Notes under the pieces: model-generated | Seen by the model: only the letters and a program-made list of their open reading frames with translations | The model's database searches: none | Told to the model about the DNA's origin: nothing | From: Bacillota bacterium | GTDB lineage: Bacteria > Bacillota > Clostridia > Oscillospirales > Feifaniaceae | Assembly (NCBI GenBank): GCA_030705925.1 | Contig: JAUZPM010000008.1 | Location: 1 to 50,726 of the forward strand | Direction: 5' to 3' | Length of the DNA stretch: 50,726 nucleotides | Translations under genes and position numbers: made by a program | Shown: piece by piece, positions 32,354 through 42,420 of the stretch | How the letters are laid out: each line of letters begins with the position of its first letter | Numbering within the stretch: the first letter of the stretch is position 1

Positions 32354-35032
32354 TTATTGTTTTTTTAATATATGAGAGAACGCTTTCTGCATTTCTACAA
32401 CCGCAACAGGCGTTAAAGAAAGCGCAATAACTATTGCCCACTGAACAGGACTTATAAGCTCCAGCCTGAATACGCTGGTACGGACAGCCGGAATGCAGAT
32501 AGTGACAAGCTGAAGAATAACGTTTATAACAAACGCGCCGACAACATAAAGGTTTGAGAATATGCCGATCTTGAATATAGAATAATTCATTGAACGGGCG
32601 TTGAACACATGGAAAAACTGTATGAACGCAAGCGTCATAAACGCCATAGTAGAGCCTGTTCTTGATGCGATTTCAGTCCCCGAGGCTACCCCCTCTTTAA
32701 ATCCGATGTAATAAGCAAAAAACGTCAGGCATCCGATTAATACGCCCTGAAATGCTATACGAAGACCAAGACCACTGCTGAAGATAGATTCATTGAGTTT
32801 GCGCGGAGGGCGATTCATGATTCCCGGTTCAGCTTTTTCCATGCCGAGCGCGATGGCAAGAAGCGAGTCAGTAACAAGGTTGATCCACAATATCTGAACA
32901 GCGCTGAGCATTTGGACAGGCATACTGAAAAGAAGCGTTCCAAGCAGTGTTGTAAGCAGGATGCTTATTATCTCGCCGATATTGCTCGAAAGCAGAAAAT
33001 GGATAGCCTTGCGGATATTATCGTAAATAACCCGGCCATAGCTTACAGCCGAGACTATCGTTGCAAAGTTGTCGTCTGCAAGTATCATATCGGCGGCGCC
33101 TTTTGCGACTTCTGTCCCGGTGACGCCCATAGAAACGCCTATATCGGCAAGTTTCAAAGCAGGCGCGTCGTTCACTCCGTCCCCCGTCATGACAGTAACA
33201 TGACCATTAGCTTTTAAAGCTTTTACTATTCTTAGTTTATGCTCAGGGGATACACGTGCGAACACACTATAGCTGTGGATATTTTTTGTAAGCTCTTCGT
33301 CCGAAATCTCTTCCAGCTCAGCGCCGCTCATCACCATGTCGCCTTCACCGAGTATGCCAAGATCACGAGCGATAGCGCTTGCAGTTATAACGTGGTCTCC
33401 AGTTATCATAATCGGGCGGATTCCAGCTGTTTTGCATTTTTCAATTGCTTTTTTTGCCTCTTCGCGAGGCGGGTCTATCATGCCGAACAGTCCAACAAAA
33501 ATAAGATCGTTCTCAAGTGTTTCTGTCGAAACTGAACTCAGCATGTCAGATTCGATCTTTTTATATGCAACAGCGATAACTCTTAACGCGCTTTTAGACA
33601 TTTCCTCGTTTGCTTCGGCAATCTTCTTTGCAAACTCATCGTCGATGGGGCTTACGCCACTGTCGTCCTCAACTGCGGTACAGCGCTGAAGCAAAACATC
33701 AGGGGCGCCTTTTGTTATTGAAATAAGTTCGCCGTTCATTTTATTCACGGTTGTCATAAGCTTTCTGTCAGAGTCGAAAGCGATCTCCTCTACCCTTTTG
33801 TTCAGCTCTTTTATCTCGATCGGGTTCATCCCACGTCTGACAGCAGCATCAATAAGCGCGACCTCTGTCGGGTCTCCGACGCTTTCGTATTTTTCGCTTT
33901 CTTTTTTAACGCTTGTGTCGTTGCACAAAACGCCAAAGGTCAAAAATTTTCCGGCTGTGCCCTCAATAGATATGTCCGACGCTGTTACATAATCAAAGTT
34001 GACGTAAGATTTAACGACTGTCATTTTGTTTTGAGTAAGTGTTCCTGTTTTATCGCTGCATATAACCGTGGCGGAACCGGAGGTTTCGATGGCGGGCAGG
34101 CTTTTCATTATGGCGTTCTTTTTCACCATACGCTGCATTCCTATAGCCAGAACTACAGTAACGATTGCAGGAAGGCCCTCAGGTATAGCCGCAACGGCAA
34201 GGCTTAATGAGTTTAGAAATACCGTCATAAGCTCATGGCTTTGAAGGTATCCTATTATAAATATTGTAACACAGACTGCGAGCGCAAAAATCGACAGAAT
34301 CTTTGAAAGCTCCTTCAGTCTTCTTTGAAGCGGCGTTGCATTTTTCTCCGCACCGCTCAGCAAATTTGCAACCTTTCCTATTTCTGTTCCGGCGCCAGTT
34401 TCAGTGACGACGCCATAAGCTCTGCCGTATGTCACAACTGTGCTCATAAATGCCATATTGGTCATGTCGCCAATGCCGCGTTTTTCATTAGAAAGAACAG
34501 TATCTGTCTTTTCGACCGGGACTGATTCACCGGTAAGAGACGATTCATCCGCCTTCATGTTAAAGCATTTTGTGATGCGGACGTCTGCCGGAACATAGTC
34601 CCCGGCCTCCATAACCACAAGATCGCCCAAAGCTACGTCTTCACAGTCTATAACTAATTGTGACCCGTCGCGTATAACCTTTGCTTTAGGCGAAGTCATT
34701 TTTCTGATCGATTCAAGTGCTGATTCAGCCTTCTGCTCCTGAACAAGACCTATTACAGCGTTAATTATGACGATCGAACAAATGATTATGCCGTCGACGA
34801 TCTCGCCGATAGCGATACATATTATCGCCGCAACAAGCAGCACAATGATTGTAGGGTCGGTGAACTGGGATAAGAACTTTTCAACTGCAGTCTTTTTTCT
34901 CTGCTCAGGAAGCTTGTTTTTGCCGTGTTTTTGAAGGTGCTCTTCAGCCTGTTTTACCGTTAGCCCCGTTTTTAAATTTGTTTCAAGGGTCTTTTCGATC
35001 TCTTCTTTCGGCTGTGAATACCAAAGCGCCAT
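32354..35032 (-). CDS. SERCA-like P-type ATPase (Ca2+/Mn2+ export), under Mn2+ riboswitch
   Basis: This P2A-type cation pump of 892 aa has TGES (167-170), phosphorylation site DKTGT with Asp327, and hinge TGDGVNDAP (616-624). Its ion-site motifs are SERCA-like: PEGLP (284-288) in M4, SSNIGE (682-687) in M5 with Asn684 and Glu687, and NLVTD (718-722) in M6. Both SERCA calcium sites therefore appear possible, whereas PMCA-type pumps lack the M5 Glu. The yybP-ykoY riboswitch and terminator upstream argue for a physiological role in manganese efflux, as for related pumps in Firmicutes. The start follows GGAG by seven bases. Confidence 0.9.
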   Translation of the reverse strand: MALWYSQPKEEIEKTLETNLKTGLTVKQAEEHLQKHGKNKLPEQRKKTAVEKFLSQFTDPTIIVLLVAAIICIAIGEIVDGIIICSIVIINAVIGLVQEQKAESALESIRKMTSPKAKVIRDGSQLVIDCEDVALGDLVVMEAGDYVPADVRITKCFNMKADESSLTGESVPVEKTDTVLSNEKRGIGDMTNMAFMSTVVTYGRAYGVVTETGAGTEIGKVANLLSGAEKNATPLQRRLKELSKILSIFALAVCVTIFIIGYLQSHELMTVFLNSLSLAVAAIPEGLPAIVTVVLAIGMQRMVKKNAIMKSLPAIETSGSATVICSDKTGTLTQNKMTVVKSYVNFDYVTASDISIEGTAGKFLTFGVLCNDTSVKKESEKYESVGDPTEVALIDAAVRRGMNPIEIKELNKRVEEIAFDSDRKLMTTVNKMNGELISITKGAPDVLLQRCTAVEDDSGVSPIDDEFAKKIAEANEEMSKSALRVIAVAYKKIESDMLSSVSTETLENDLIFVGLFGMIDPPREEAKKAIEKCKTAGIRPIMITGDHVITASAIARDLGILGEGDMVMSGAELEEISDEELTKNIHSYSVFARVSPEHKLRIVKALKANGHVTVMTGDGVNDAPALKLADIGVSMGVTGTEVAKGAADMILADDNFATIVSAVSYGRVIYDNIRKAIHFLLSSNIGEIISILLTTLLGTLLFSMPVQMLSAVQILWINLVTDSLLAIALGMEKAEPGIMNRPPRKLNESIFSSGLGLRIAFQGVLIGCLTFFAYYIGFKEGVASGTEIASRTGSTMAFMTLAFIQFFHVFNARSMNYSIFKIGIFSNLYVVGAFVINVILQLVTICIPAVRTSVFRLELISPVQWAIVIALSLTPVAVVEMQKAFSHILKKQ

Positions 35033-36389: not shown

Positions 36390-36421
36390 AAAGAGGCAGG
36401 ATATGTCAACCCTGCCTCTTT
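36390..36421. terminator. Bidirectional terminator between GDSL and trkA
   Basis: AAAGAGGCAGG (36390-36400) pairs with CCTGCCTCTTT (36411-36421), with a T-rich tail on the plus strand. It serves convergent genes. Confidence 0.82.
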
Positions 36422-36422
36422 A

Positions 36423-37088
36423 TTATTTTGCTCCAAAAAGGGTATTCAGTTTTTCCTGAGATTCACCGTCTGTGAACGCGATTATCTCATCGCCTGCATT
36501 TATTATCGTATCACCGTGAGGAATCACGACTCCATTATCGTGATATACAGCAATAAGCACAGTATCCGCCGGTATATCCAAATTTTTGACCGCCTTGTTC
36601 ACTGTTGCCGACTGACTGTCGACTTTGACCTGTACGATTGAATAATTTCCTCGGCTCATCTTCATCAGGGTCAGAACATTTTTTAGATTCATCTCTTCGA
36701 CGACGATATGAGCCATCAGGTCAGCCTGATTAAGTCCCACGTCAACACCCATACCGGCATTGAACAGCCATGAGTTTTGCGGATTGTTCACGCGGGCGAT
36801 CACACGCGGAACGTTAAACTCAAATTTTGCGATAGTTGAGGCAACAAGGTTTGCCTCGTCAGCACCCGTAACTGCGGCAACCACGTCGGCTTCCGTTATC
36901 CCGCATGACTCAAGTATGCTCGGGTCTGTCCCGTTCCCGAAAACTAGCACTTCAGGCGGCAATTCATTTTTGATTTTTTCAAAAACACTTTCGCGGTTTT
37001 CTATCACTTTAACAGTGCAGTTATTTTTTAAAAGCAAACCGGCAACATAAGCTCCGACTTGACCTCCGCCTATAATAATAACATTCAT
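36423..37088 (-). CDS. TrkA/KtrA-type RCK potassium regulatory protein (second of two)
   Basis: This 221-aa cytoplasmic RCK protein has an N-terminal Rossmann domain with GGGQVG and the NAD-binding acidic residue in VIENR. A C-terminal TrkA_C domain follows from about 135 (VQVKVDSQSATVNKAVKNL). Such proteins gate K+ transporters in response to NAD(H), ATP/ADP or c-di-AMP. No TrkH/KtrB channel gene is adjacent. It is the last gene of an operon behind another RCK protein (16-base gap) and a P-type ATPase. Confidence 0.9.
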   Translation of the reverse strand: MNVIIIGGGQVGAYVAGLLLKNNCTVKVIENRESVFEKIKNELPPEVLVFGNGTDPSILESCGITEADVVAAVTGADEANLVASTIAKFEFNVPRVIARVNNPQNSWLFNAGMGVDVGLNQADLMAHIVVEEMNLKNVLTLMKMSRGNYSIVQVKVDSQSATVNKAVKNLDIPADTVLIAVYHDNGVVIPHGDTIINAGDEIIAFTDGESQEKLNTLFGAK

Positions 37089-37104
37089 TGCTTTCCCTCC
37101 ACTT

Positions 37105-37755
37105 CTAATAAAGACCCAGTAAAGATTTCAGCCTTTTTGTAGACGATGACAAAGCTGCAATATAAATAACATCATGCTTTTGCAAAGCCGTACCCATTGT
37201 GGGAAGGAAAGTTTTATTGTCACGGCTGATGGCGACAACATGTATTTCGCCAACAACAGTAAGCTCGTTGACGGTTCTTCCGACAAGAAGTGTGGGCGTA
37301 TCAATTCTTACAAGCTCGACATTGCTGTCGCCGATAGTGAGAACGCTGTCAAGCTGGTTATAGCTAAGCATTTCAGTTGTGCGCAGAACGCCCCAGGTAG
37401 TGGTAGATATAGTCTGAATGCCAAGCGAGCGGTAGACCTCTGCCTTTCTCGGGTCGTACAGTCTCGAAATAACACGCGGGACTTTATAGATATTACGGGA
37501 AATCCGCCCGATCAAAGCATTTGCCTCATCGCTTTTGCTGCAAGCGACGATTGCGTCAGCCATTTTTATCTGCGCTTTTTCAAGAATACCACGGTCAAAG
37601 CCGACGCCAACAATGGTTTCTCCCTTGAAGTCTTTGCCGAGAAGCTGGAAAGCTTCGGGATCATTGTCAATAACCGTTACATTATGTCCTTTTTTCAAAA
37701 GGTTCAAAGCGAGTCCCGAACCCAGCTTGCCGCATCCGACTATAATGACTTTCAT
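37105..37755 (-). CDS. TrkA/KtrA-type RCK potassium regulatory protein (first of two)
   Basis: This 216-aa RCK protein has GCGKLG and Asp in VIDND for NAD binding, plus a C-terminal TrkA_C domain (VELVRIDTPTLLVGRTVNEL). It shares the architecture but not close sequence with the following trkA gene, so the two may form hetero-assemblies rather than being a recent duplication. It lies 12 bases after the ATPase stop. Whether it controls a distant Trk/Ktr channel or the ATPase itself is open. Confidence 0.9.
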   Translation of the reverse strand: MKVIIVGCGKLGSGLALNLLKKGHNVTVIDNDPEAFQLLGKDFKGETIVGVGFDRGILEKAQIKMADAIVACSKSDEANALIGRISRNIYKVPRVISRLYDPRKAEVYRSLGIQTISTTTWGVLRTTEMLSYNQLDSVLTIGDSNVELVRIDTPTLLVGRTVNELTVVGEIHVVAISRDNKTFLPTMGTALQKHDVIYIAALSSSTKRLKSLLGLY

Positions 37756-37767
37756 AATATAAACCTC

Positions 37768-40566
37768 CTACCTTCTTTTACTGTATTTCCGGAAAATAAG
37801 TTTTCTGAGTTCTTCTATAAGAACGAGCGGAATCGGCAGAATAATTAGGAACAACCATTCTTTAAGACCGATCGGCGCCGTGTTGAATATTCCCTGAAGG
37901 AACGGTACATATATAAGTGCGCTAAGCAAAAATATCTCAAATATGATGCCGAAAACGATTTTTCTGTTGCTGAATATCCCGACTTTAAATAATGATTGAA
38001 CATTAGTTCGGCAGTTCAGCACGATACCTATCTGGCAGAATACGATGGAGGCAAGAGTCAAAGTCGTCGCCTGTCTGTAAACAAACCCAGTTGAGGCAAG
38101 CGGCACACTCGGCCAGCCATGCAGATAATTCACAAAGAAATATGCGCCCATTGAAATGACCGATTCAATTAGTCCATACCATAAAAATGCTTTTATAATA
38201 AGGTTTTTATGAAGTAAAGTGTCCTTTCTTGACCTCGGCGGCTGATCCATAACACCTTTTTCAGGAAGCTCACATCCAAGACCAAGCGCCGGCATCATAT
38301 CTGTTCCAAGATCGACAGCAAGTATCTGCATTACGGACAGCGGCAGCGGGATTCCGCCCCTTGAGAACAGGAATGCCGCTGAAGGCACAGCCTCCGGCGT
38401 GTTGCTGTTTAGGATATAAAGCAAGAATCTTCTGATATTGCTGTAAACCGCGCGGCCTTCCTCGATTGCCCTTACGATTGAGGCGAAATTGTCGTCCGTC
38501 AAAATCATATCCGCGGCTTCCTTTGCAACGTCAGTTCCCGAAATGCCCATTGCAACGCCAATATCAGCCTTTTTAAGTGCCGGCGAGTCGTTGACTCCAT
38601 CACCCGTCACTGCAACAATGTGTCCCATTTCCTGCAGACAGCAGACGACTCTGTATTTCTGCTCCGGCGCAACTCTTGCGAATATGATCTCATCTTTAAG
38701 GGCCTCTTTCAGCTCATCATCCGAAATATTTTCAAGGTCAACGCCTGATAATATGCGCGGATGCTCGCCCTGAACGATCCCTATGCGCTTTGCTATGCTC
38801 TCAGCGGTAAGTCCATAGTCGCCGGTTATCATTATGATTCTGATATTAGCCTTGTGGCAAAGTGCAACTGCGTCGGCAACCTCCGGTCTTGGCGGATCGG
38901 CCATAACTACAAGCCCTACAAAAGTCAGATCCTGCTCAACAAGTTCTGGCGTATATGCGCTAAGCGCCGCCGGAAGATTGCTTTCCCTTGATATTAATCT
39001 ATATGCGACAGCAAGAACCCTTAAGCCGTTTCTTGCATATTTATCATTTGCTCCAACTATCTCACTGCGCTGATCATCAGTGATTTTTTCCTGCTTGCCG
39101 TTTAAATATATGCTTGTACAAAGATCCAAAACTTCTCTCGGCGCACCCTTGATATATGCAATGCGGTTGCAGCCGTTTATGGGGTTATCCAGCTGGTGAA
39201 CCGTTGTCATCCTTTTACGTCTCGAATCAAAGGGCAGTTCTCTTATCCTTGGCGTAAGCGACGCCTGTTTTTCAATATCTATACCGGCTTTTTTTGCAAC
39301 GACACCGAGGCAAGCTTCCGTCGGATCACCTAAAACAGTATATCTGCCCGATTCTTCTTCCGGGGGGACGACACGAGCATTGCTGCAAAGTCCTGCCGCT
39401 GTAAGAAGCAGATTCAGTTCACTATCGGTCTTCGCATTGATTTCCTTTTCTCCGTCCACGACCTTGCCGACAGGGGCATAGCCAAGCCCTGTTACCTTTA
39501 ATTCTCTGCCAGGCAGCCACAGATTGTTTACAGTCATCTCGTTTTGTGTAAGCGTTCCGGTCTTATCAGAGCAGATAACAGTGGTGCACCCCAGCGTTTC
39601 AACAGCAGACAGCCTCTTTACAAGGGCGTGTTCCTTGACCATCCGCTGTACAGCCATAGCAAGTGACAGCGTAACCGTCGGAAGAAGGCCTTCAGGAATA
39701 AATGCCACAATCATGCCAAGTGCATAAACGAATGACTGGGCAACCGGTTCTTTTACGAAAAATATTGCGGCAATGAAAAATATAATTCCTATGCTTAACG
39801 AGATAATTGAAATCTGTTTTGTCAGTTTATCAAGCTCTTTTTGAAGAGGGCTTTGTTCCTCTTTCATAGACTGTGTCAGATTGGCGATCTTGCCGAATTC
39901 AGTCTGCATTCCGATGGTCGTTACAACAGCTTTAGCTGTGCCGCTTGCAACACTGGTGCCCGTGAAAATAAGGTTTGGAACTTCAAACCTTGAGAGATCT
40001 TCGCGAAGAACAGGCTCATGCGTTTTACGGACAGGGTTCGATTCGCCTGTAAGTGTCGATTGATTCACCTGAAAATCGCTGCTTTCTAAAAGGCGCGCGT
40101 CTGCGGATATCTTGTCGCCCTCCTGCAGCAACATTATGTCCCCGGGCACAAGGTCTTCAGCCAGTATCTGCTGTTCCTGCCCGCCTCTAACGACCCTTGC
40201 ATAGGAGGGCAGCATACTTTTAAGCGCTTCAGTCGCCTTTCCGGCTCTATACTCCTGCCAAAAGCTGAAAACGCCGTTGATGACGTTTACAAGCCAAATA
40301 GCGATTCCAAGTTCGGGCATGTCGGCAATTATTGCGATAATGCCGCCGATCCATAAGAGGATCGCCATAAGACTTATGAAATTAGACAAAAACACCAACC
40401 AGATCGGTTTTCCTTTTTTCTCGCTTATCACATTCTTGCCAAACTTATGCTGGTTTTCCTCCGCTTCTGAGGCTGTCAGCCCGTCTCTTCTTGTCCCCAG
40501 AGCAGCAAGAGCTTCATCATATGTTTGCTTGTAGATGCTTTCATTAACATTCGTCTTTTCTTCCAT
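37768..40566 (-). CDS. P-type ATPase with Na+/K+-ATPase-like ion-site signatures
   Basis: This P2-type cation pump of 932 aa has TGES (173-176), DKTGT with Asp334, and TGDGVND (654-660). In M4 it has PEGLL (291-295) rather than SERCA PEGLP; in M5 SNTPE (721-725); in M6 DLGTDMMPA (752-760). These equal the Na+/K+-ATPase alpha motifs PEGLL, SNIPE and DLGTDMVPA, so exchange of Na+ or K+ is the best guess. It shares an operon with two RCK proteins. The start is set at ATG 40566, with AAGGAT upstream, rather than a TTG two codons earlier. No beta or FXYD-like partner is visible. Confidence 0.88.
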   Translation of the reverse strand: MEEKTNVNESIYKQTYDEALAALGTRRDGLTASEAEENQHKFGKNVISEKKGKPIWLVFLSNFISLMAILLWIGGIIAIIADMPELGIAIWLVNVINGVFSFWQEYRAGKATEALKSMLPSYARVVRGGQEQQILAEDLVPGDIMLLQEGDKISADARLLESSDFQVNQSTLTGESNPVRKTHEPVLREDLSRFEVPNLIFTGTSVASGTAKAVVTTIGMQTEFGKIANLTQSMKEEQSPLQKELDKLTKQISIISLSIGIIFFIAAIFFVKEPVAQSFVYALGMIVAFIPEGLLPTVTLSLAMAVQRMVKEHALVKRLSAVETLGCTTVICSDKTGTLTQNEMTVNNLWLPGRELKVTGLGYAPVGKVVDGEKEINAKTDSELNLLLTAAGLCSNARVVPPEEESGRYTVLGDPTEACLGVVAKKAGIDIEKQASLTPRIRELPFDSRRKRMTTVHQLDNPINGCNRIAYIKGAPREVLDLCTSIYLNGKQEKITDDQRSEIVGANDKYARNGLRVLAVAYRLISRESNLPAALSAYTPELVEQDLTFVGLVVMADPPRPEVADAVALCHKANIRIIMITGDYGLTAESIAKRIGIVQGEHPRILSGVDLENISDDELKEALKDEIIFARVAPEQKYRVVCCLQEMGHIVAVTGDGVNDSPALKKADIGVAMGISGTDVAKEAADMILTDDNFASIVRAIEEGRAVYSNIRRFLLYILNSNTPEAVPSAAFLFSRGGIPLPLSVMQILAVDLGTDMMPALGLGCELPEKGVMDQPPRSRKDTLLHKNLIIKAFLWYGLIESVISMGAYFFVNYLHGWPSVPLASTGFVYRQATTLTLASIVFCQIGIVLNCRTNVQSLFKVGIFSNRKIVFGIIFEIFLLSALIYVPFLQGIFNTAPIGLKEWLFLIILPIPLVLIEELRKLIFRKYSKRR

Positions 40567-40682
40567 TTGCAACCAATCCTTATAATTACATATTACAAGT
40601 AATATACTATATCCTTTTTTTAAAATTGCAATATTTAATTACAATTATGTGTATATTATAGTTCTTTTTTCTAATTTTTATT

Positions 40683-40717
40683 AAAAAAATAGCAGATAAG
40701 CCAATGACTTATCTGCT
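40683..40717 (-). terminator. Terminator of sigI-rsgI
   Basis: AGCAGATAAG and CTTATCTGCT form a perfect 10-bp stem with a seven-base loop, followed on the minus strand by ATTTTTTT. The conserved repeat at 40718-40760 directly precedes it. Confidence 0.88.
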
Positions 40718-40766: not shown

Positions 40767-41699
40767 TTAGTTGCTTTTTCCCTTGCCCGGATTATCCTTT
40801 TGTGACTGCCCCTTATTTAAAGAGGCGTCCGTTTTATTTACATCTTTTTTAGAATTTGAATTATTTTTTTTGCTTTTACTACTGCTCTGTTTTGAGTTAC
40901 CTTTATTTTTGTCTGCGGATACGGCGGCTTCATCAGTTTTATCCTTAGCAGGTTTAACTTCAGGTTTCGTCTCTTTTTTGTTTTCTTTTATCGCGTCCAT
41001 GATTTCTTTAACAGGTTTCTTTAACCATTGTTCACGGTCTATACTCTGCGAGTCCGGCGCGCTCTCCTCAAGGTTCTGAACGAGATTAAGTTTGCCTGGC
41101 GTAACGCCCAGTTCATCTGCTTCTTTTACGCGCTCTTCGCCGACGCTGACAGCCTCAATGTCAGTTTCTTCACTGTGATTCTTTGTTTCGGTTTTAATCC
41201 CGTCACGCAGCTTTTGCGCAAGATTCTCTGCCTTTGTTTCATTTTTGCCGGAGGTCGAAATTATTATCCCTCCGCCATTTTCAGCCTTTAAATAACCGTC
41301 GTCAGTAATTTGCTTTACAGTTTTATCAACAGCTTCTTTTATATCTTTGTGGCGAAGGTTATCGGCGCCTATTTCTTTCAAAATCTTTTCGCCATCACTG
41401 TTTACTGCTTTTACAGACAGCACTCGCTCAAATCGGTTGAGTGAATATTCTATCGATGGGTTAACGTCAAGCCCCACATATGAATACGGAGTGAAGTATG
41501 CTAAAGTGCTTGTGGTGCATAGCATCAGAACTGCGGCGGCAGATGCCGACCATGCGGCAATTTTTTTGTCTATTCTTGTTTTCTTTATCTCGATGATCTG
41601 CCCAACGGCATAATTTTTGTTTTTGACTTTAATTATCCTGCTGTCGTCTGCTAAAGCCGCCGCGTATTTATCTCGAAATTCAACGATAACAGCTTTCAT
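40767..41699 (-). CDS. rsgI: RsgI-type anti-sigma factor
   Basis: This membrane anti-sigma factor holds SigI inactive. The 310 aa comprise an N-terminal cytoplasmic RsgI_N domain (1-47), one membrane helix (about 48-68) and the periplasmic domain containing GLDVNPSIEYSLNRF. Its Asn80-Pro81 bond is the autoproteolysis site known in RsgI. The tail from about 235 is Lys/Ser/Asn-rich low complexity with no carbohydrate-binding module, unlike the cellulosome RsgIs. The start ATG 41699 has GGAG seven bases upstream and overlaps sigI by 20 bases. Confidence 0.92.
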   Translation of the reverse strand: MKAVIVEFRDKYAAALADDSRIIKVKNKNYAVGQIIEIKKTRIDKKIAAWSASAAAVLMLCTTSTLAYFTPYSYVGLDVNPSIEYSLNRFERVLSVKAVNSDGEKILKEIGADNLRHKDIKEAVDKTVKQITDDGYLKAENGGGIIISTSGKNETKAENLAQKLRDGIKTETKNHSEETDIEAVSVGEERVKEADELGVTPGKLNLVQNLEESAPDSQSIDREQWLKKPVKEIMDAIKENKKETKPEVKPAKDKTDEAAVSADKNKGNSKQSSSKSKKNNSNSKKDVNKTDASLNKGQSQKDNPGKGKSN

Positions 41700-42420
41700 G
41701 TTCAATCTCCTTTTTGATCGATTCCATATATTCGCCAAGACAGGGATAATCTCCGGTCAAGATTTCAATTGCCGCTATTATATATCTACGATGACGCTCT
41801 AAAATTTTTCGGGGAATCTTGCAGCTTTTTTCAATTTCTTTTATTGGTAATTGTCTATACAAACGCATATCTTGAATAAGAAACGTGTTTTGCACTAGAA
41901 AGGATATCGCCTTTGCACAGGCTTTTTGGGTCTTCCCTGCTTTCGGTGAGCATCCGGTAAGGTCGAAAAATGAGAATCCATATTGTGAAAATGTCTCATT
42001 TGCCGCTTCAATCTCAACCTTAAGCTGATCATTGCTGTCCTGAGCTTTTTGCTCAACCACCTTACGGTAAATCGCAAGATCATCATCGTAATCCTCGGGG
42101 TCTGTGTTGAATACGGCTGGGTTTACCACAATCTCATTTTTCTTTTTCGAGTTTGATCTGTAGTAATCAATTAGCTTTCTTTTTATCACCACATTTGCGA
42201 AACCGAGAAAGCTGCCTTTTTTCAAATCATAGGTATTAACCGCATTAGTAAACGCAGAAAGCGCCAGCGACCATTCATCATCGCTTTTGGTTATATAGCG
42301 ATGTGTTGCCCGGGAGGCGCACTGTAAGATATATGTTTCATTTATACTGATAAGTTCGTTTAAAACCCGCTCATCAGCAGCGGCGCTGACCGCCATCTGA
42401 TCCAAATCCCGCATCCGCAA
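41680..42420 (-). CDS. sigI: RNA polymerase sigma factor SigI
   Basis: SigI is an alternative sigma factor for heat, envelope or polysaccharide-related genes. The 246 aa show region 2 (DDEWSLALSAFTNAVNTYD and GSFLGFANVVIKRKLIDYYR) and the SigI-specific C-terminal helix-turn-helix (LPIKEIEKSCKIPRKILERHRRYIIA). AGGAG lies six bases before ATG 42420. It is followed by rsgI with a 20-base overlap, the classical pair. An extended -10 (TGTTATAAT) lies about 35 bases upstream. Confidence 0.93.
   Translation of the reverse strand: MRMRDLDQMAVSAAADERVLNELISINETYILQCASRATHRYITKSDDEWSLALSAFTNAVNTYDLKKGSFLGFANVVIKRKLIDYYRSNSKKKNEIVVNPAVFNTDPEDYDDDLAIYRKVVEQKAQDSNDQLKVEIEAANETFSQYGFSFFDLTGCSPKAGKTQKACAKAISFLVQNTFLIQDMRLYRQLPIKEIEKSCKIPRKILERHRRYIIAAIEILTGDYPCLGEYMESIKKEIEHESCYR

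Follow-up and report, generated by a model that had tools for sequence, protein, structure and literature searches.

A conserved operon joining a Na+/K+-ATPase-like P-type pump to two RCK proteins in a Bacillota bacterium

An operon made up of one P-type ATPase gene and two RCK (TrkA-type) genes was found on the minus strand of a 50,726-nucleotide stretch of DNA from a Bacillota bacterium of the family Feifaniaceae (GenBank assembly GCA_030705925.1, contig JAUZPM010000008.1, positions 1 to 50,726; hereafter the window). The genes are arranged in the order pump, RCKa, RCKb, spaced by 12 and 16 bases respectively, and no channel gene (TrkH) was present in the operon. The same trio was found in Bacillota, Actinomycetota and Chloroflexota. 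RCK proteins are regulators of channels and antiporters. On balance, we consider it likely that this operon encodes a primary cation pump resembling the Na+/K+-ATPase (NKA) together with two dedicated, nucleotide-binding cytosolic RCK regulators. The association of the pump with the RCK pair is real and conserved, and it is undescribed as far as our literature search reaches; the parts are known singly, and it is their coupling that we infer.

The three-gene operon and its conservation

An initial annotation, made from the DNA letters alone, had described the locus as an ATPase gene with two RCK genes and no channel gene. The open reading frames (ORFs) and intergenic gaps were as it had claimed, and the following features were identified:

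37768..40566, minus strand: pump gene, P2-type cation pump with a Na+/K+-ATPase-like site
37105..37755, minus strand: RCKa gene, TrkA_N and TrkA_C protein of 216 amino acids, of a lineage found with these pumps only
36423..37088, minus strand: RCKb gene, TrkA_N and TrkA_C protein of 221 amino acids, of a second lineage found with these pumps only
40655..40684, minus strand: promoter-like site TTAATA-18-TATAAT, 5' of the pump gene (consensus match only)
36390..36421, minus strand: terminator-like hairpin of 13 pairs, directly 3' of the RCKb stop (consensus match only)
40691..40717, minus strand: terminator-like hairpin 5' of the operon, dividing it from the preceding gene (consensus match only)

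Promoter-like matches numbered 17 in the region against 12.0 expected in shuffles, and terminator-like hairpins 12 against 6.8. Since one hairpin directly follows RCKb and another, with the promoter-like site, precedes the pump gene, the transcription unit probably comprises the pump, RCKa and RCKb alone. Read from TTG, the pump ORF extends over 37768-40572 (934 amino acids), and pump residue numbers count from this TTG at 40572; the alternative in-frame ATG at 40566, preceded by AAGGA, is the likelier start.

When related pumps were collected from other genomes, two groups were distinguished by one residue of transmembrane segment M6: Asp-site pumps have the Asp of the window pump (D754) and Asn-site pumps the M6 Asn of SERCA. 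The surveys took only matches beyond a set E-value. Among the genome of the window and 58 relatives (59 genomes), two relatives had orthologues, at 66 and 60%, and the RCK pair was present in each case. Across 391 genomes of the class, seven, including our own, had an orthologue at 55% identity or above, the pair was present in all seven and the next best pump was at 43%, while in 398 genomes of the phylum pumps at 48% or above occurred in 10 besides our own, nine of them with the pair. A search of 201 Chloroflexota genomes gave 14 Asp-site rows, 11 of them with the pair. In Actinomycetota (296 genomes searched), it was present in 50 of 64 Asp-site rows, absent from 13 and cut short in one; 62 of these genomes had a match, and G1314 and G1164 were left out of the locus set. 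Among the named loci, the best 80 of 555 relatives, both RCK genes were found in 26 and RCKa up to the contig end in one; the 53 without the pair were mostly from lactic acid bacteria. The trio is present, among others, in Clostridium intestinale, Lacrimispora defluvii and Schleiferilactobacillus perolens. The ATPase-RCK-RCK order seen in the initial annotation thus proved to be a conserved three-gene unit in three phyla; TrkH seldom adjoined it and was undetected in many of the genomes that carry it.

After deduplication, the pair was present behind 96 of the 168 Asp-site pumps, absent despite downstream room in 67 and cut short in 5, compared with 1, 68 and 5, respectively, of the 74 Asn-site pumps. 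The association is therefore not a matter of chance, and chance neighbourhood was ruled out by this Asn-site control. The sole exception is L282, a pump of the SERCA type that adjoins both a pair of RCK genes and TrkH. The distance from the pump to the RCKa domain had a median of 34.5 bases and a maximum of 438 (100 pairs).

On plasmids, the trio was found in one of five pump regions, that of a Streptomyces plasmid with the order pump-TrkA-TrkA and 4-base overlaps. Three further plasmid regions had no TrkA gene annotated beside the pump, their annotation being incomplete, and the Asp-site pumps of the cyanobacterial plasmids L146 and L147 (Picosynechococcus and Nostoc azollae) were without RCK genes. 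No relative was found on viral contigs with a single-protein query. In most Lactobacillales loci among L069-L143, and on plasmid L150, closely related pumps occur on their own. In Clostridium psychrophilum (L070) a pump remnant has lost its middle and has no RCK pair behind it, and this is apparently a decaying operon copy. Two loci, L261 (G1041) and L268 (G1087), carry tandem Asp-site pumps with an RCK pair directly behind one only.

The surroundings of the operon were also inspected. A SERCA-type P2 pump gene lies near by at 32354-35032 with no RCK gene directly adjoining. Upstream on the same strand (40767-42420) are genes for a SigI-like sigma factor and an RsgI-like anti-sigma factor, separated from the operon by a hairpin. 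No riboswitch was matched by Rfam in the window; eight loci gave three matches, none directly 5' of the pump.

The pump and its cation site

The pump has the Pfam domains Cation_ATPase_N, E1-E2_ATPase, Cation_ATPase, Hydrolase and Cation_ATPase_C, which is the full P2 architecture. The motifs PEGLL, SNTPE and DLGTDMMPA, from which an NKA-like cation site had first been proposed, were confirmed, as was the SERCA set PEGLP/SSNIGE/INLVTDS in the neighbouring pump at 32354-35032. In an alignment with human NKA alpha-1 (NKA residue numbers), E327, Y771, S775, N776, E779, D804, T807, D808, Q923 and the M9 Glu were all matched in the window pump, by E294, Y719, S723, N724, E727, D754, T757, D758, Q847 and E879. 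The residues of NKA sites I and II (E327, N776, E779, D804 and D808) correspond to E294, N724, E727, D754 and D758. These residues bear out a site that is NKA-like rather than SERCA-like. Among 174 Asp-site rows, D754 (by which the group is defined) and E294 were present in 174, E727 in 173, N724 in 152 and D758 in 151; the equivalents of Y771 and Q923 were invariant (174/174) and the M9 Glu occurred in 164. In the 74 Asn-site rows, Q847 was found in 30, the M9 position was Ser in 58 (Ser, Gly, Ala or Cys in 72), and Phe replaced Y771 in 59.

Phylogenetic analysis separated the two groups. In a 118-row tree, Asp-site and Asn-site pumps were split with a support of 100 in the Shimodaira-Hasegawa-like approximate likelihood ratio test (SH-aLRT), and NKA fell inside the Asp-site clade (95). 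A 38-row mixture-model tree also placed NKA inside this clade (97), and grouping NKA with the Asn-site pumps was rejected by the approximately unbiased test (p-AU 0.03). In these trees NKA is a long branch and archaeal P2C, IIB and IID rows were left out; all trees in this study were 'quick' searches with SH-aLRT as the only support. A position within the ordinary Ca2+ pumps, which the initial annotation had named as a result that would overturn its reading, was not obtained, since the pump belongs to a clade apart from the bacterial SERCA-type pumps. It likewise differs from the SERCA type (IIA) in having Asp754 in place of the M6 Asn (N-L-x-T-D) and in lying outside the Asn-site clade.

NKA alpha chains were the best matches to the pump among solved structures by sequence. 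An AlphaFold2 model computed from 50 sequences had a mean predicted local distance difference test score of 85 and a predicted template modelling score of 0.75, and NKA was its best fold match (Z 44.2). H,K-ATPase structures matched the pump about equally to NKA.

The type IIC (P2C) P-type ATPases (animal Na+/K+- and H+/K+-ATPases, and archaeal P2C pumps that are uncharacterised) are similar to the window pump in core site residues, in being its nearest structures by sequence and fold, and in that NKA lies inside its clade in the trees. They are unlike it in that the operon contains no third kind of gene (neither beta nor FXYD) and has two RCK genes, and in that the window pump is without D926 and missed the NCBIfam IIC cut-off. 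Because this cut-off was missed, we call the pump NKA-like and do not assign it to type IIC. The beta subunit family PF00287 was unmatched in the genome of the window, a search whose control was likewise positive in 0 of 14 genomes.

The RCK pair

TrkA_N and TrkA_C were detected above the Pfam cut-offs in both RCKa (37105; 90.2 and 37.4 bits) and RCKb (36423; 93.7 and 44.4 bits), and both proteins have GxGxxG and an acidic residue that ends strand 2. Over 101 pairs, GxGxxG (residues 7, 9 and 12) and acidic residue 30 were kept in RCKa and RCKb, a pattern that fits nucleotide binding and from which a nucleotide ligand may be supposed.

The nearest neighbour was an RCK of the same type for all 202 pump RCKs. 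When 32 of the 101 pairs were placed in one tree with 53 further RCK domains, most of which came from TrkH loci, all 32 RCKa formed one clade (SH-aLRT 96) and all 32 RCKb another (86), apart from the 53 others. The distance correlations between the pump and the RCK proteins were 0.81 and 0.78, compared with at most 0.07 when shuffled. Given the separate clades, the same-type neighbours and the distance correlation, RCKa and RCKb appear to be two ancient lineages tied to this pump. The separate clades also support the earlier notion of an RCK pair tied to the pump. Non-pump RCKs in Actinomycetota loci that also hold the trio belonged to other lineages. Loci L292-L297 of this phylum are K+ islands, in which as many as seven RCK domains occur, and L292-L295 have TrkH beside the trio as well; the RCKs of these islands fall into separate lineages as if there were one set per transporter.

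Cyclic di-AMP (c-di-AMP) was tried as a ligand and rejected. A c-di-AMP signature for RCK_C domains is given in a passage of a published study (PMC10117811); in its strict form it was found in 0 of 202 pump RCKs and also in 0 of 53 other RCK domains. A relaxed pattern, tuned on controls after nine KtrA-type sequences had been viewed, was found in 0 of 202 pump RCKs and 0 of 44 other domains vs 8 of 9 KtrA-type sequences. By this measure the pump RCKs show no evident form of the known c-di-AMP site. Among 266 pump ORFs, Asp-site and Asn-site together, no natural pump-RCK fusion occurred.

The pair shares with the TrkAH/KtrAB K+ uptake systems RCK proteins with TrkA_N, TrkA_C and a nucleotide-binding motif, and with the TM1088A/TM1088B pair the presence of two separate RCKs. 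It differs from TrkAH/KtrAB in that the partner gene encodes a P-type ATPase instead of a TrkH/KtrB channel, and in that RCKa and RCKb each fall into a separate clade and have no counterpart of the Arg that belongs to the c-di-AMP signature in KtrA-type proteins.

Control of the pump and alternative explanations

Since the trio recurs in three phyla, even where no channel was found, the pump is probably the RCK client, so that the pair probably controls the pump itself. By analogy with the control of TrkH/KtrB channels by TrkA/KtrA, RCKa and RCKb would assemble as a hetero-oligomer, with NAD(H) or an adenine nucleotide bound in the Rossmann domains; this assembly would dock on the cytosolic side of the pump and, according to the energy or redox state, speed up or slow down its turnover. 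The pump would most likely export Na+ in exchange for K+, and the number of Na+ per cycle may be below three, since the site III Asp (D926) is missing. Of the RCK-controlled K+/Na+ pump first proposed, the conserved unit, the NKA-like site, the tied RCK lineages and the intact GxGxxG and acidic residue all stood, whereas physical contact, ion, ligand and the direction of control are what we infer from them. More tentatively, and with slightly less than even confidence, these pumps may form a widespread and undescribed class with a hetero-oligomeric RCK as permanent subunits and a rate directly sensitive to NAD(H) or adenine nucleotides, serving as a main K+ and Na+ system in bacteria without a Trk/Ktr channel.

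Several observations weigh against an RCK-controlled Na+/K+ pump. Of the 168 distinct Asp-site pumps, 67 have no pair though there is downstream room, including L071, L072 and L141 at 62-65% identity to the window pump, so the RCK pair is not obligatory for the pump. Na+ site III (D926, E954) is incomplete: D926 is replaced by I850 in the window pump, with the M9 Glu (E879) kept, and by mostly Asn, Ala or Thr in other Asp-site pumps. In 18 relatives N776 is replaced by Leu and D808 by Glu (AHL.PE / D.GTE), and 15 of these keep the RCK pair; this variant, seen in L153-L156, L212, L227, L240 and others, may have a different ion preference. The NCBIfam type IIC model TIGR01106 gave 623.2 bits and did not reach its cut-off of 946.1, and the model for PMR1-type Ca2+ pumps scored slightly higher (645 bits, cut-off 798). 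SPCA (Z 41.3), SERCA (40.0) and LMCA1 (39.1) fit the AlphaFold2 model little worse than NKA, and with scores this near, the predicted structure leaves the ion undecided. Part of the pump-RCK distance correlation is explained by species relatedness. CtpF of M. tuberculosis, reported as a Ca2+ exporter in a passage of PMC9180918, may be a relative of the window pump. Finally, TrkH was found near the trio in six Actinomycetota loci (L292, L293, L294, L295, L256 and L267), a count to be read as at least six because many survey loci have flanks of only about 1.5 kb. Shared K+ regulation in trans is possible on account of these loci.

In such an arrangement, the RCK pair and the pump would belong to one K+/osmotic regulon without contact, and the RCKs would act in trans on TrkH/KtrB or another K+ transporter. 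We regard this as unlikely. It is in keeping with the RCK-TrkH neighbours elsewhere in the genome of the window, where the single TrkH match lies on another contig and adjoins another RCK gene (C28:9390-11170), with TrkH near the trio in the six loci above, and with the TrkH match in 28 of 50 trio-bearing genomes. However, none was found in the other 22, nor in 4 of a second set of 13 trio-bearing genomes (one genome is common to both sets), and the channel-side RCKs are of other lineages even within the same loci. Many genomes are drafts, in which non-detection of TrkH can reflect an assembly gap; G015, G558 and G523, which are among the TrkH-negative trio genomes, each consist of one contig, and G558 and G523 carry the Leu/Glu site variant. 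TrkA_N matches above the cut-off were confined to the pump's own pair in three genomes (G015, G295 and that of L068), and G558 had besides its pump pair one partial match over 38 positions. It had been foreseen that frequent trkH or ktrB in the operons of relatives would refute control of the pump; a TrkH-like ORF was found in 0 of the 80 named loci (the best 80 of 555 relatives, flanks up to 8 kb), and the six Actinomycetota loci go the other way. RCK genes were also examined in 13 genomes with a lone (12) or broken (1) pump, to which the search for pump-type RCK pairs without a pump was confined. None of 11 RCK matches was nearest to a pump type (one, L309, was only weakly like any type), and 5 of the 13 genomes had no TrkA_N match at E 1e-12. 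Because lone-pump genomes hold no pump-type RCK match, the pump can do without the pair.

The transported ion was weighed in the same manner. An electroneutral H+/K+ exchanger, in which K+ uptake is paid for with protons as in the gastric and non-gastric H+,K+-ATPases, appears rather unlikely: the missing site III Asp and the H,K-ATPase structures that match about as well as NKA would suit it, but the window pump has S723 and not Lys at the position of Lys791 of the gastric pump, and Tyr719, Thr757 and Glu879 are kept. This comparison relies on the role of Lys791 in the gastric H+,K+-ATPase. We consider it quite improbable that the pump exports Ca2+ (or Mn2+) in the manner of bacterial pumps of the PMR1/SERCA type and that the RCKs were added to impose energy or redox control. 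The residues Q847 (174/174 Asp-site vs 30/74 Asn-site rows) and M9 Glu (164/174 vs Ser, Gly, Ala or Cys in 72/74) argue against it, as do the SH-aLRT 100 split from the bacterial SERCA-type clade and the SERCA-type pump already near by in the same genome, although the best NCBIfam model is the PMR1-type one, below its own cut-off, SPCA structures are almost as good a fit as NKA, and the actinobacterial CtpF is reported in part of PMC9180918 to export Ca2+.

An NKA-like pump under RCK control can be compared with two further known systems. KdpFABC also allies a P-type ATPase that moves K+ with a part from the Trk/Ktr world, KdpB being joined to the channel-like subunit KdpA according to a passage in PMC6255902; here, in contrast, the P2 pump contains an ion site of its own, and what it has borrowed is a soluble regulator. 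In KhtTU and CpeAB, as outlined in part of PMC10117811, a soluble RCK_C protein is encoded with a cation/proton antiporter and acts on it, and this action on a non-channel transporter is the likeness to our operon; those systems consist of a secondary antiporter and one RCK_C, compared with an ATP-driven pump and two full RCKs. No description of an RCK-regulated P2-type ATPase was found among the open-access titles and abstract openings listed, a scope outside which most subscription papers lie, and none of the papers searched joined P-type ATPase, TrkA and RCK domain. Within this scope the search agrees with the initial annotation, which knew of no such pump. Archaeal P2C (Na+/K+-ATPase-like) pumps are called functionally uncharacterised in section 7 of a 2023 review (PMC10654040), in which neither TrkA nor RCK occurs as a term.

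If the proposed control is true, the pump would be a new class of RCK client, and bacterial Na+/K+-type pumps would gain a testable physiology. The trio-bearing genomes without a detected Trk channel are clean genetic test cases, and the lone pumps of lactic acid bacteria form a natural contrast set for locating the RCK docking surface. An ATP-driven pump would then be tied to the energy state of the cell without animal-type subunits.

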